NCBI GenBank assembly: GCA_021790195.1
Contig: JAJYIF010000003.1
Coordinates: forward strand, 1-64,000
Length of the DNA stretch: 64,000 bases
Reading direction: 5' to 3'
Origin: Nitrospirota bacterium
Lineage (GTDB): Bacteria > Nitrospirota > Thermodesulfovibrionia > Thermodesulfovibrionales > UBA9159
How positions within the stretch are numbered: position 1 is the stretch's first letter; each line of letters starts with the position of its first letter. Shown here piece after piece: positions 16,913-40,653 of this stretch. The position numbers and the translations under genes are program-made. Under the pieces are notes generated by a model. It saw only the letters and a list, made by a program, of their open reading frames with translations. It was not told the DNA's origin and did no database searches.

Positions 16913-16959
16913 CGAAAGCAGAAGCCCTTACGTTATACGCGTAAGGGCTTCTGCTTTCG
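16913..16959. terminator. Strong bidirectional terminator hairpin
   Basis: Perfect 20 bp inverted repeat (arms 16913-16932 and 16940-16959; core GCAGAAGCCCTTACG) around a 7-base loop, placed between the converging helicase gene and the minus-strand yeeE gene. A U-run is weak, but position and stem strength support termination on both strands. Confidence 0.85.
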
Positions 16960-17018: not shown

Positions 17019-18116
17019 TCAGTCGTTCATGGGCTTTATGAACTTGAAATAAACCATCGTCCAGTTGCCCAGGATTATCGAGACCGTCGCCACTAAGCTT
17101 GAAAGAGCCATGGTTGACATACCTGTCACCCCGTGACCGAGGTTTCAGCCACCGGCGATAACGGCCCCAATCCCCATCAGTAAGCTCCCGAACAGAACGG
17201 TAAGGAATTCCTTTGCCTGGGGGATCTTCCACTTGAACTCTTTTAAGGAAAGTGCGCTTATCAAAGCGCCGATGGGTACTGCAAAGATAAAGAACACTCC
17301 CCATGTACCGGTAAATATGCCCAGGAAGCTGAATTCCGGAAAAGGCGAGTGAGAACTCCTGTAAAGGACAGCGTTGAAGAACTCCCTTACGGGCGTGGTG
17401 ATAGCAAGGCCCCTCGGGAAGCCGCCGAAATACGAAGAAGCTACCCACGCGGCTATGGTCAGGAGTCCCACCAGAAGTCCGGTCAGGCCCCACGAAAACG
17501 ATTTGGAGCTTTTCCCGAAGGAGGGCTTGCCCTTGAAGACGAAGATCAGAAGCGCGAGGCAGAAGATGCCGATCGTGAGCCATTTTGCCGTCGGACTGCC
17601 GCCGAAGAGGTCCCATATGGCCGGGTTCGTCTTGCCCCCGACCTCGACCTTCAAGCTCTTAAGGTAATCGTATATGGGACTCAGCAAGCCCTGGGTGGTC
17701 ATCACGATGCCCAGGAAAAAGCCGATGATCGCCGTTATGGTCGAGACCTGTCCTTCACCGACCCTGTATATAATGCCGCTGGCGCATCCGCCCGCAAGCA
17801 CTATGCCGACGCCGAAGATGAACCCGCCGATGACATTAGCAAGAGGGACAAAACTCTGCCGCATGAGCTCAACTTTCTCATAATGCCCGGTCGTCTGATC
17901 GAAGGTCATGAGAAGACCGAAGTGCTCTAGAAGGTTAGTCCCTATAATCGCCACAGCCACACATAGCAAATATGCCCTGAAAAAGGTCAGGTCCTTGACG
18001 AAGATAATGTCCCTGAAGGCCGAGTTCAGGCAAAAACGCCCTCTCTGCAGGACGAACCCCAAGCTCAGGCCGAGGATAAGTGCCGATATTACAGAATAGA
18101 TGTTACCTTGAAGCAT
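17019..18116 (-). CDS. YeeE/YedE-family transporter with probable selenocysteine at residue 324
   Basis: Read conventionally, the frame ends at a TGA (17145-17147) after IAGG. If the TGA is decoded, the frame continues 41 codons, NLGHGVTGMSTMALSS and so on to a normal stop at 17019, giving 365 residues. YeeE/YedE (DUF395, PF04143) proteins have about nine to ten membrane helices in two halves, each with a GGC motif; here the first half keeps LAGGCASG and the second has IAGG-TGA-NLGHG, where relatives have Cys. The extra 41 residues complete the last membrane helix and have the family's look. A SECIS-like hairpin follows the TGA. YeeE proteins import thiosulfate or other sulfur species; relatives are linked to selenium. 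It is the last gene of the USP operon. Confidence 0.8.
17112..17138 (-). promoter_or_regulatory. SECIS-like hairpin downstream of the in-frame TGA
   Basis: In the minus-strand RNA, seven to thirty-three bases after the UGA: an upper stem UGACA/UGUCA closed by the tetraloop GGUA, with a lower stem GGU/ACC and an internal bulge on the 5' side. Bacterial SECIS elements have a short stem with G and U in the apical loop, about 16-37 bases after UGA; here the loop begins 22 bases after it. Folding was done by hand. Confidence 0.68.
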
Positions 18117-18312
18117 ATGCCTCCCTTCCCTTACAAAAGTGCTCGTGTTTCCAGCATCCGTTTCCCATGGCTATCAGGACAGCCACTTTGGCCTTCTTCT
18201 CCACATCTTTGGAGACGCATCCCGTGACATATCTCTGTAGACGCGACTTTCCGCTGCAGCCCACAAGGATGAGATCAACGCCTTCCTCGTCGGCAACCAA
18301 TACCTTCTTCAT
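18103..18312 (-). CDS. Minimal USP-like protein with internal deletion
   Basis: 69 residues from an ATG with a strong AAAGGAGG site. It starts MKKVLVA like the full USP upstream (18342-18854), then jumps directly to the last third of a USP: EGVDLILVGCSGKSRLQRYV and TGCVSKDVEKKAKVAVLIA, matching VELIIVGCDRHEGLSRFIFG in that paralogue. About 90 residues, including the ATP-binding Asp region, are missing. It overlaps the yeeE start by 14 bases, so it is translated just ahead of the transporter. It may be a real small protein or a decaying paralogue; the good ribosome-binding site and coupling favour expression. Cys-rich (five Cys). Confidence 0.65.
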   Translation of the reverse strand: MKKVLVADEEGVDLILVGCSGKSRLQRYVTGCVSKDVEKKAKVAVLIAMGNGCWKHEHFCKGREAYASR

Positions 18313-18341: not shown

Positions 18342-18854
18342 CTAAGCTGCTGTAATCATCCCCGGCTCCCTCACAGCCGTCTTGTGTTCGGCCGTTTCTT
18401 TGGCCACAATTACGGGGACACCTGAATCCCTCTCCACCTGCTCGCTGACGCAACCGAAGATGAACCTGCTGAGTCCCTCATGCCTGTCGCAGCCGACGAT
18501 TATCAGCTCGACATTTTCCTCCTGTGCGACCTTCGAAATTTCCTCCGAGGGGATTCCCTCTCTTATCATCGTCGTTACTTTGACAAGTCCGCCGTTGTCG
18601 AATTTCTTCTTATAATGGCTGAGTATGCTCTCAGCTTTTCTGTCAAGCGCCTCTTTGTATTCCGTTCCCCTAAGCTGCTCTTTTAACGTCGACAGCTCTG
18701 CCTCTCCGAGCATGTCAATCATCTTCGTCCTTCCCTCAAGCCTTTCCACGTAGAGAAGTATTACCTCTTCGGGGGGCCTGACCAGGTTGTCGAAGACAGA
18801 CACCACGGATTCCGCGGCCCTGGTGTCATCGACTGCAACCAACACTTTTTTCAT
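18342..18854 (-). CDS. Universal stress protein (UspA family)
   Basis: 170 residues with UspA-fold features: MKKVLVAVDDTRAAESVVSV (first strand and Asp), VILLYVERLEG, and ELIIVGCDRHEGLSRFIFGC where the usual GxxGxxGxxxxxxGS loop is degenerate (G-x-D-R-H-E-G-x-x-x-F-I-F-G-C). ATP binding may therefore be weak. UspA proteins help cells survive starvation and oxidative or energy stress. Second gene of a minus-strand operon: USP with membrane anchor, this USP, mini-USP, yeeE. Ribosome-binding site AAGGAGG. Confidence 0.85.
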   Translation of the reverse strand: MKKVLVAVDDTRAAESVVSVFDNLVRPPEEVILLYVERLEGRTKMIDMLGEAELSTLKEQLRGTEYKEALDRKAESILSHYKKKFDNGGLVKVTTMIREGIPSEEISKVAQEENVELIIVGCDRHEGLSRFIFGCVSEQVERDSGVPVIVAKETAEHKTAVREPGMITAA

Positions 18855-18892: not shown

Positions 18893-19486
18893 TTAATGCT
18901 GAAACTTACCTCCCTGAAGAAAGATGCCCAAAATGTAAAGACCGGCTACAAAAATTGCGGTCACCGAAATTGCGGCAACGGCATCTCTCCAGGTATAGGG
19001 CTCCTCGCAAAGGTTTGCCCTCTTGGCCACGAGAACGGGGACCTTTGCCCTCTCCTGCACCTCCTTCGCAAAATTGCCCGAGATGAATCTGTTCAGTCCT
19101 CTTCTTCCGTCGCCCCCCATGATAATAAGTTCTGCATGTTCTTCATCTGCGACCTTAAGGATTTCCTCTGCGGGATGTCCCGCGCGTATTATGGACTTGA
19201 CACTTATTCTGCCGTCCTCAATCTCGCGGCGGAAGCGGTCCAGTGCTATTTCTGCTGTTTCATCGAGCCTGCGCTTATGCTCGCTGTCCTTGAGGGCGTC
19301 CTTCAGGGTGGACATTTCAGCATCGCCGAGCATATCAGTCAGAAGAGACCTGCCCTCGAGCCGCTGGACGTAAAGGAGTATAGCTGTCTGGGGCCTTCTC
19401 ACCAGGTTTTGAAAGGAGGATAAGACCGACCTTGAAGACCTTGTATCGTCCACTACGAGCAGCACACTGTTCACACTGTTTTCCAT
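18893..19486 (-). CDS. Universal stress protein with C-terminal membrane anchor
   Basis: 197 residues: a UspA domain (SVLLVVDDTRSSRSVLSSFQ, AILLYVQRLEG, ELIIMGGDGRRGLNRFISGN, VPVLVAKRA) followed by a C-terminal hydrophobic segment (AAISVTAIFVAGLYILGIFL), which should fix it to the inner membrane. A USP tethered next to a YeeE transporter gene suggests a membrane-proximal sensor or regulator; this is inference. First gene of the operon. A -24/-12 promoter ends so close upstream that the mRNA would have almost no leader if this ATG is used; GTG codons at residues 5 and 8 are alternative starts. Confidence 0.82.
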   Translation of the reverse strand: MENSVNSVLLVVDDTRSSRSVLSSFQNLVRRPQTAILLYVQRLEGRSLLTDMLGDAEMSTLKDALKDSEHKRRLDETAEIALDRFRREIEDGRISVKSIIRAGHPAEEILKVADEEHAELIIMGGDGRRGLNRFISGNFAKEVQERAKVPVLVAKRANLCEEPYTWRDAVAAISVTAIFVAGLYILGIFLQGGKFQH

Positions 19487-39621: not shown

Positions 39622-40653
39622 ATGGAAGAAATGACATACAGGAGGGCCGGCGTCGACATTGAGGAAGGCGACCGGTTCGTAAGGATCATTTCGCCTCTTG
39701 TCAGGAAGACCTTCAGAAAAGAGGTGCTGACCGATATAGGTTCCTTCGGTGCGCTATTCAAGTTGGACGTTGTCAGATACAAAGAACCGGTCCTTGTCAG
39801 CGGAACGGACGGAGTGGGCACGAAGCTGAAAGTGGCCTTTATGATGGACAGGCATGACACCGTGGGCATCGACCTTGTGGCCATGTGCGTGAACGATATC
39901 CTCACGAGCGGGGCCGAGCCGCTTTTCTTTCTCGACTATTTCGCCACGGGCGAACTCAGACCCGAAAAGGCCGCAAGTGTAATCGAAGGGATTGTCGCCG
40001 GGTGTAAAGAGGCGGGTTGCGCCCTTATAGGCGGTGAGACGGCGGAGATGCCGGGCTTCTATGAGAAAGGGGAATACGATCTCTCCGGCTTTGCAGTCGG
40101 CGCTGTCGAGAGGTCTGATATTATCGACGGCTCCGGTATAAATGCGGGTGATTGTCTTATCGGTCTTTCGTCCAGCGGTCTTCACAGCAACGGCTTTTCT
40201 CTCGTTCGCAAGGTATTCTTTGAGCAGGAGGGAATGGACCCGCAAGCCCATGTTGCCGAACTTGGAACAACATTGGGAGATGAACTTCTGAAGCCCACGC
40301 GTATTTATGTGAAGGCCTTCGCGGCTCTCAAAGGGAAGGTCCCGGTCAAGGGCATGGCCCACATAACGGGCGGAGGCCTTACCGGCAATCTTCCGAGGAT
40401 TTTTCCGGAGGGCATCGGCGCCGTCGTGCAAAAAGGGTCGTGGCCTGCTCAGCCCGTATTCGGACTTATCGCGCGGAAAGGCCGTGTTCCCGAGGAAGAC
40501 ATGAGACGCACCTTCAATCTGGGCATCGGCTATGTCGTCGTTGTTCCCGAAGAGTCGTCGTCAAATACAATAACTCTTCTCAAGGACGCTGGTTACGATT
40601 CCTTTGAGATCGGGAGAACCGAAAAAGGAAGGAAGGAGATAAGGTATGAGTAG
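39622..40653 (+). CDS. purM: Phosphoribosylformylglycinamidine cyclo-ligase
   Basis: 343 residues. DVVRYKEPVLVSGTDGVGTK and LKVAFMMDRHDTVGIDLVAM near the N-terminus, GLSSSGLHSNGFSLVRKVFF in the middle and MAHITGGGLTGNLPRIFP downstream are AIR synthetase landmarks. It makes aminoimidazole ribotide, step five of purine synthesis. A start at 39631 (MTYRRAG) is possible. The 3' end overlaps the M23 peptidase gene by eight bases, linking it to envelope genes; this is common operon packing rather than pathway logic. Confidence 0.96.
   Translation: MEEMTYRRAGVDIEEGDRFVRIISPLVRKTFRKEVLTDIGSFGALFKLDVVRYKEPVLVSGTDGVGTKLKVAFMMDRHDTVGIDLVAMCVNDILTSGAEPLFFLDYFATGELRPEKAASVIEGIVAGCKEAGCALIGGETAEMPGFYEKGEYDLSGFAVGAVERSDIIDGSGINAGDCLIGLSSSGLHSNGFSLVRKVFFEQEGMDPQAHVAELGTTLGDELLKPTRIYVKAFAALKGKVPVKGMAHITGGGLTGNLPRIFPEGIGAVVQKGSWPAQPVFGLIARKGRVPEEDMRRTFNLGIGYVVVVPEESSSNTITLLKDAGYDSFEIGRTEKGRKEIRYE

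Follow-up and report, generated by a model that had tools for sequence, protein, structure and literature searches.

Genes and features at the locus

The window, that is the whole 64,000-nucleotide stretch analysed here, carries on its minus strand a yeeE/tsuA-type gene downstream of two universal stress protein (Usp) genes. The features considered are the following.

17019..18116, minus strand: yeeE/tsuA-type gene, internal TGA read through; 366 codons including the stop; Pfam PF04143 (Sulf_transp)
17145..17147, minus strand: in-frame TGA, predicted Sec codon 324, at the place of an invariant Cys; chain position 293 of S. thermophila YeeE (6leo)
17112..17131, minus strand: predicted SECIS hairpin; UGACA/UGUCA (17128-17124 with 17119-17115), loop GGUA (17123-17120), GG/CC (17131-17130 with 17113-17112) with a G-A mismatch between the two helices
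18030..18032, minus strand: TGC, Cys29; chain position 22 of 6leo; in the UCU clade, a second predicted Sec (TGA) at residue 29
17784..17786, minus strand: TGC, Cys111; chain position 91 of 6leo; motif GGCASG
18342..18854, minus strand: Usp gene, upstream of yeeE
18893..19486, minus strand: second Usp gene, upstream of yeeE

The yeeE frame starts at 18116 on the minus strand, runs for 323 codons to the TGA at 17147-17145 and goes on for 41 codons to TGA-TAA (17021-17016). The terminal TGA (17021-17019) lies directly before the TAA, and the C-termini of homologues stop there too. The read-through product covers profile positions 1-310 of the 310 of PF04143 (E 4.5e-70) and is similar over its full length to the solved S. 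thermophila YeeE 6leo (E 8.2e-37). Counted on the printed alignment, residues 29, 111 and 324 correspond to 6leo chain positions 22, 91 and 293. Hence, the whole-length family match comes with the three in-line Cys positions, one of which is a predicted Sec. As expected of a selenoprotein gene, the UGA is aligned to a conserved Cys and homology goes on past it.

In YeeE, three cysteines are lined up through the membrane, numbered first (C293), second (C91) and third (C22), and thiosulfate is thought to meet each in turn (PMC11073785). C91 and C293 are indispensable, and in SoxT1B a Cys-to-Ser change at each of the three abolished thiosulfate oxidation (PMC11582611). The TGA thus falls on a functional cysteine. 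ARAGORN found no tRNA in the window. No Rfam family, whether or not Rfam includes bacterial SECIS families, matched at gathering score over the whole window.

The hairpin in the window sequence

On the minus strand, the UGA (17147-17145) is followed by AACCUCGGUCACGGG-G-UGACA-GGUA-UGUCA-A-CC. A previous reading of this DNA, made from the sequence only, had proposed a SECIS-like hairpin at 17112-17138. Its upper stem UGACA/UGUCA and its loop GGUA are read directly from the sequence, and the loop does begin 22 bases after the UGA, with 21 nt between the two. The proposed lower stem GGU/ACC is in error, one U having been counted twice: what can pair is GG with CC across a G-A mismatch, a register backed by the relatives. 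The hairpin occupies 17112-17131, and the stretch 17138-17132 lies outside it.

The fold of the single sequence is unremarkable and ambiguous. With RNAfold on 17147-17095, the optimum reaches -15.2 kcal/mol (z -1.48), a value that 19 of 200 shuffles equal or better. It contains four base pairs of the upper stem, GACA/UGUC, along with a competitor closer to the UGA, the proximal hairpin ACCUCG/CGGGGU. On 17147-17085, the four inner pairs of the upper stem have probabilities of 0.45-0.49 and the outermost U-A pair 0.11. In a 52-nt stretch, the least probable of the four core pairs goes from 0.21 to 0.67-0.68 when the first 9 or 12 nt after the UGA are dropped, a rough stand-in for the ribosome footprint at the UGA. 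The sequence-only reading had also argued that overlap with coding sequence makes a chance hairpin unlikely. This argument fails by itself, the protein motif L/V-T-G-M/V-S permitting the hairpin fairly easily: of the synonymous shuffles of this sequence, with the protein and the family codon usage fixed, 8.6% contain the 4-bp core and 4.3% the 5-bp stem. Taken alone, the window sequence is weak evidence for a SECIS.

The published model for bacterial SECIS elements sets a loop of 3-9 nt, a stem of 4-16 bp, a G in the first two loop positions, a spacing of 16-37 nt and a minimum free energy of at most -7.5 kcal/mol (PMC13188914, Fig 2 legend). The window hairpin, with a loop of 4 nt, 5 bp, GG, 21 nt and -7.9 kcal/mol (nt 13-34 after the UGA), lies within each of these bounds. 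No feature of it falls outside that bSECISearch model as the legend gives it, and its energy is at the weak end of the range. On 17112-17138 and 17112-17130, stretches that both cut flanking bases, the energies are -6.5 and -6.1 kcal/mol.

Conservation and covariation of the stem among relatives

For comparison of the stem, loci identical over the surrounding 180 nt were removed, leaving 34 Sec-type and 38 Cys-type genes; the Cys set covers the nearest Cys-type matches plus a selection of others. The core UGAC/GUCR is present in all 34 distinct TGA genes versus one of the 38 Cys genes (Fisher 9e-20, relatedness ignored). With pair 14-31 added (numbered from 0 after the UGA), the counts are 33/34 versus 0/38, and with pair 15-30 as well, 28/34 versus 0/38. 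A G15-A30 mismatch is found in five Sec genes, including both copies of the window's genome, so that the lower stem is imperfect here. In 300 rounds of synonymous shuffling of the 34 Sec genes, the core was present in 2.0 genes on average and in six at most. Across relatives, the hairpin is not due to chance.

Covariation of the stem had been set as a test of the proposal. Pairing is kept in register while its bases change: G-C and C-G stand at one pair in 28 and 5 of the 34 genes, C-G and U-A at another in 15 and 14, and U-A and U-G at a third in 20 and 14. In the 34 Sec genes, 88.2% of the alignment cells are paired, a value that drops to 29.8-44.5% when the partner is slid by 1-3 columns. 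Cells with both sides changed number 22, versus 7.7 in shuffles, and the covariation score is 0.242 versus 0.122 (sd 0.013). Two other measures, the pairs with a both-side change and the further pair types, are no higher than in shuffles, 197 and 483 of 500 being as high. The 38 Cys genes give no covariation excess on any measure. Hence, compensatory change accompanies Sec and free variation accompanies Cys, as expected of a SECIS. Synonymous codon choice gives a concrete case: Leu UUG goes with a downstream codon whose first base is A (ACC for Thr or AGC for Ser; 14 genes), and Leu CUG with one whose first base is G (Ala or Gly; 15 genes).

Folding of the relatives agrees with this comparison. 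From a 63-nt alignment of the 34 Sec genes, RNAalifold returned six pairs that are exactly the claimed helix. A preference for a different structure, named beforehand as evidence against the hairpin, is thus partly seen for the single sequence and disappears on the alignment. The three inner pairs reach a probability of at least 0.5 in 33/34 Sec and 0/38 Cys genes when the first 9 nt after the UGA are dropped, and in 27/34 and 0/38 when they are kept. On nt 13-34 after the UGA, the energies of the Sec genes range from -7.6 to -12.3 kcal/mol; the limit of -7.5 is reached by 34/34 Sec versus 0/38 Cys genes. The loop, also expected to be kept, is so in part. Its GG never varies, but these bases code for Gly and are equally constant in Cys genes; the following U is found in 28/34 Sec versus 13/38 Cys genes.

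Sec machinery and a second gene copy

The window's genome (3.3 Mb, 54 contigs, 96% complete) holds the complete set SelA, SelB, SelD and tRNA-Sec. Two tRNA-Sec matches score above cut-off (72.9 and 64.3 bits), at G000:C10:1221-1314 and C36:66663-66753; several related genomes also have two or three matches. SelB (377 bits) and SelA (614 bits) both lie on contig C45. SelD (349 bits; G000:C40:63237-64154) has one in-frame TGA and may itself contain Sec, as judged from its reading frame. A weak SelD-profile match inside the window (39889-40407, plus strand, 22.9 bits) is probably a fold relative and not SelD.

SelB is above cut-off in 63 of 63 related genomes. As all 63 carry it, it fails to tell Sec-type genomes from Cys-type ones, a use that we had considered. 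The split between the two types is therefore not tied to presence of the machinery, Cys-type genomes having it too. At the strict setting, tRNA-Sec was not found in 10 of the 63 genomes, six of the 30 Sec-type ones among them.

A second yeeE on contig C47 of the same genome is 85% identical and has its TGA at the same codon. Between the two copies, the 40 codons 325-364 show 8 synonymous and 5 amino-acid changes, and the remaining 323 codons 127 and 48. Synonymous differences amount to 1/13 just after the TGA versus 134/282 elsewhere. As an argument for a SECIS this last comparison is not clean, an equally conserved window being present from codon 300. That stretch, upstream of the TGA and devoid of synonymous differences between the two copies (L014, L118), may reflect gene conversion or another constraint.

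Distribution and history of the Sec/Cys exchange

Within the phylum, 123 of 395 genomes have a yeeE match (E <= 1e-30). Among the matches listed in this search, in-frame TGAs at residues 324/29 occur in at least 30 genomes, the window's own included. All of the listed TGA genomes were analysed, as were the nearest Cys-type matches and a selection of others. We also scanned 84,980 species with the pattern GG-UGA-[N/T/K]xG[H/Q].., which hit 30 contigs, 29 of them with a yeeE match. The titles of 28 of these 29 read Nitrospirota/Nitrospirae/Nitrospiraceae, Thermodesulfovibrio or Thermodesulfovibrionales; the other, 'Bacterium BMS3Bbin05', has no phylum in its title. The pattern count is a lower bound, since variants such as L101 (Ala after Sec) are missed and genomes closely related to the window's own may be absent. 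The genes on many of these contigs are the ones already met at loci of the phylum search. The sole non-Nitrospirota hit (L068, Granulosicoccaceae) has no YeeE match and overlaps an unrelated frame on the other strand; it was set aside as a chance match. The same kind of scan gave no match in viral contigs.

Counting every matched locus, duplicates too, in-frame TGAs total 97. Residue 324 accounts for 68 of them and residue 29 for 27; the remaining two, one at 362 (L090) and one without an aligned position (L046), are in Cys-type genes and look like terminal stops. Residues 29/111/324 are of the types CCC, CCU and UCU. Residue 111 is never U, being Cys in every analysed relative that covers it.

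In a protein tree of 71 rows (33 Sec rows; the partial L117 left out), the Sec/Cys state at 324 needs four changes, all forced by well supported branches, versus a shuffled mean of 23.9. As far as this tree can tell, related bacteria appear to have switched between Sec and Cys at 324 several times. The tree gives no direction of gain or loss. The pair from the window's genome is nested among Cys-type genes, beside a Cys-type sister (L015, 81% identity), and this nesting makes a gain of Sec in that lineage likely. Three genomes (G020, G115, G190) hold both a Cys-type and a UCU-type gene, so that the two forms are not simple substitutes there.

A second predicted Sec site at residue 29

UCU-type genes (for example L018, L067, L070, L099 and L102-L112) carry another in-frame TGA, which replaces the invariant Cys of QRGRYC-MNSAFRD. 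A hairpin with loop CGUGA, 20 nt after that UGA, and stem AGAGA/UCUUU is present with five pairs in 14/14 distinct UCU genes versus 4/56 Cys-29 genes. This stem is nearly invariant in Sec genes, only pair 14-30 varying (C-G in 12, U-A in 2), so that its support comes from conservation and not from covariation. The UCU type therefore appears to be a transporter with two predicted Sec residues.

Interpretation of the hairpin and weighing of alternatives

The open frame, the exchange of Cys and Sec at a single codon, the presence of the machinery, and the conservation (34/34 Sec versus 1/38 Cys genes) and covariation of the stem all come from comparison of sequences, and together they support the SECIS interpretation. 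We consider it highly probable that the hairpin 17131-17112 is a bacterial SECIS, that UGA 17147-17145 is read as Sec and that the product is a full-length YeeE/TsuA-type transporter. With the ribosome at this UGA, SelB carrying Sec-tRNA(Sec) would bind the hairpin just downstream; Sec would be inserted at 324 and translation would go on for 41 residues to TGA-TAA. In the predicted product, the first cysteine (C293 in S. thermophila YeeE) would be replaced by Sec, and residues 29 and 111 would remain Cys.

A true nonsense codon, in a pseudogene or created by a sequencing or assembly error and followed by a coincidental hairpin, is very improbable. The hairpin does arise by chance in 4-9% of the synonymous versions of this single sequence, but the TGA stands at the same codon in the second copy and in about 30 genomes, in lineages needing four changes on the tree, and the codons after it are under protein constraint, with 8 synonymous versus 5 amino-acid changes, like the remainder of the gene. 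We give just as little credence to a TGA that is translated without a SECIS as Trp or Cys, whether through codon reassignment or natural suppression: the frame is open however the TGA is read, yet the gene itself appears to end in TGA (then TAA), where homologous C-termini end, the genome has SelB and tRNA-Sec, and it is precisely the TGA genes that the stem marks. It is hardly more probable that Sec is inserted by means of the proximal hairpin, which starts one base after the UGA. This hairpin is the optimum in four relatives (L072, L091, L093, L117) and part of the optimum in the window gene; 0/500 shuffles reach its covariation score, and its 71.9% of paired cells and 11 both-side cells are above shuffles. 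However, four of its 11 pairs fail to form in half the Sec genes or more (17, 22, 19 and 29 of 34), whereas the distal core is present in 34/34. Its loop is nearer the UGA than the 16-37 nt of the model given in PMC13188914, and its 5' arm would lie inside the ribosome. Its covariation signal cannot be fully explained away.

The product scores below cut-off with the NCBI TsuA models NF052577 (221 of 400 bits) and NF041049 (138.5 of 645 bits) and with the YedE model TIGR04112 (43.9 of 200 bits). As the TsuA cut-offs are unmet, it is filed as a relative of the family and not as TsuA, and its substrate can only be proposed. Most likely, a selenolate would make the entry site more reactive to a thiosulfate- or sulfane-sulfur-like anion bound for cytoplasmic sulfur carriers. 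That it instead transports selenium like YedE, or is a sulfur-sensing unit like SoxT1B, is the less likely course but one to be taken seriously. Gene context links YedE to selenium use (PMC5322559), SoxT1B functions in signalling (PMC11582611), and two regulator genes lie upstream in divergent orientation. On the other hand, the TsuA model gives 221 bits versus 44 for TIGR04112, and DsrE/DsrH and rhodanese (sulfur-carrier) genes lie near yeeE in 2 of 10 loci.

Relation to known YeeE/YedE proteins

A selenoprotein YeeE is not new as such. PMC13188914 counts the family among predicted selenoproteins, giving it the motif GUxSG and a single Sec, and PMC9312934 lists it too. The protein listed in PMC13188914 belongs to the same Pfam family and likewise has Sec in place of one conserved cysteine. 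Going by its description, the motif GUxSG matches the second cysteine, which is residue 111 (GGCASG) in the window gene. Unlike that form, the window gene has its predicted Sec at 324 (GGUN.GH); relatives have a further one at 29 (QRGRYU), giving two predicted Sec per protein. The terms 'YeeE', 'YedE' and 'sulfur transport' are absent from the main texts of the two papers cited for GUxSG in that review (PMC2398784, PMC5029168). In the literature searched, which covered few subscription papers and no bioRxiv preprints, we found no mention of Sec at GGUN.GH or QRGRYU; a groundwater-genome study mentioned in PMC13188914 may include such genes. What is new here are the two further predicted Sec sites, the predicted double-Sec form and the evidence for SECIS elements.

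S. thermophila TsuA/YeeE (6leo, 6lep, 8k1r, 8j4c) is similar over its full length and its three functional cysteine positions align; it differs in that its first cysteine is a predicted Sec here. No TsuB/YeeD-like gene was seen by eye immediately adjoining the window yeeE. YedE (TIGR04112) is a distant relative within the same superfamily, and both proteins are selenium-linked; it differs in that its model gives only 44 of 200 bits and in that the account of YedE in PMC5322559 does not describe it as Sec-containing.

Selenols have a low pKa and are mostly selenolates at neutral pH, poor hydrogen-bond donors and good nucleophiles. An S-H-S hydrogen-bond relay has been proposed for YeeE/TsuA, and direct transfer between the cysteines has been called questionable on distance grounds (PMC11582611). 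A selenolate would be a poor donor for such a relay but a good nucleophile, which may point to covalent chemistry. Sec at the first and, in double-Sec forms, also the third cysteine bears on the choice between a relay and cysteine chemistry in YeeE-type proteins. More speculatively, and with low probability, Nitrospirota may have repeatedly turned the entry Cys of a YeeE-type channel, and in one clade also the exit Cys, into Sec because its substrate (sulfane sulfur, persulfide or a selenium species) is handed on by reversible covalent selenolate chemistry and not by an S-H-S relay. It would then be a chalcogen-exchange transporter whose row of residues spanning the membrane reads Sec-Cys-Sec. 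The repeated Cys/Sec exchange at one codon, with the same hairpin each time, also makes these genes a case for the origin of a SECIS within coding sequence. For annotation, taking the TGA as a stop truncates such genes, which lose their last conserved motif and a key transporter residue.

Genomic context

Usp genes lie upstream of yeeE both at the window locus and at the second copy. Elsewhere, a DsrE/DsrH-like gene (L101), a rhodanese gene (L119) and a Usp gene (L112) are found within about 2 kb of yeeE, in a sample of ten listed loci; of the ten proteins scanned there, eight have a Pfam match and two have none. The sulfur-carrier genes near 2/10 loci weakly fit a sulfur transporter. Directly before the window yeeE, a short Usp-like reading frame (18103-18310, minus strand) looks like a truncated copy; the corresponding place at the second yeeE locus holds a full Usp gene (L118:6519-7043). 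On the other side, between the convergent yeeE and UvrD-like genes, a perfect inverted repeat at window 16914-16958 (GAAAGCAGAAGCCCTTAC ... GTAAGGGCTTCTGCTTTC, found by eye) is possibly a shared terminator.
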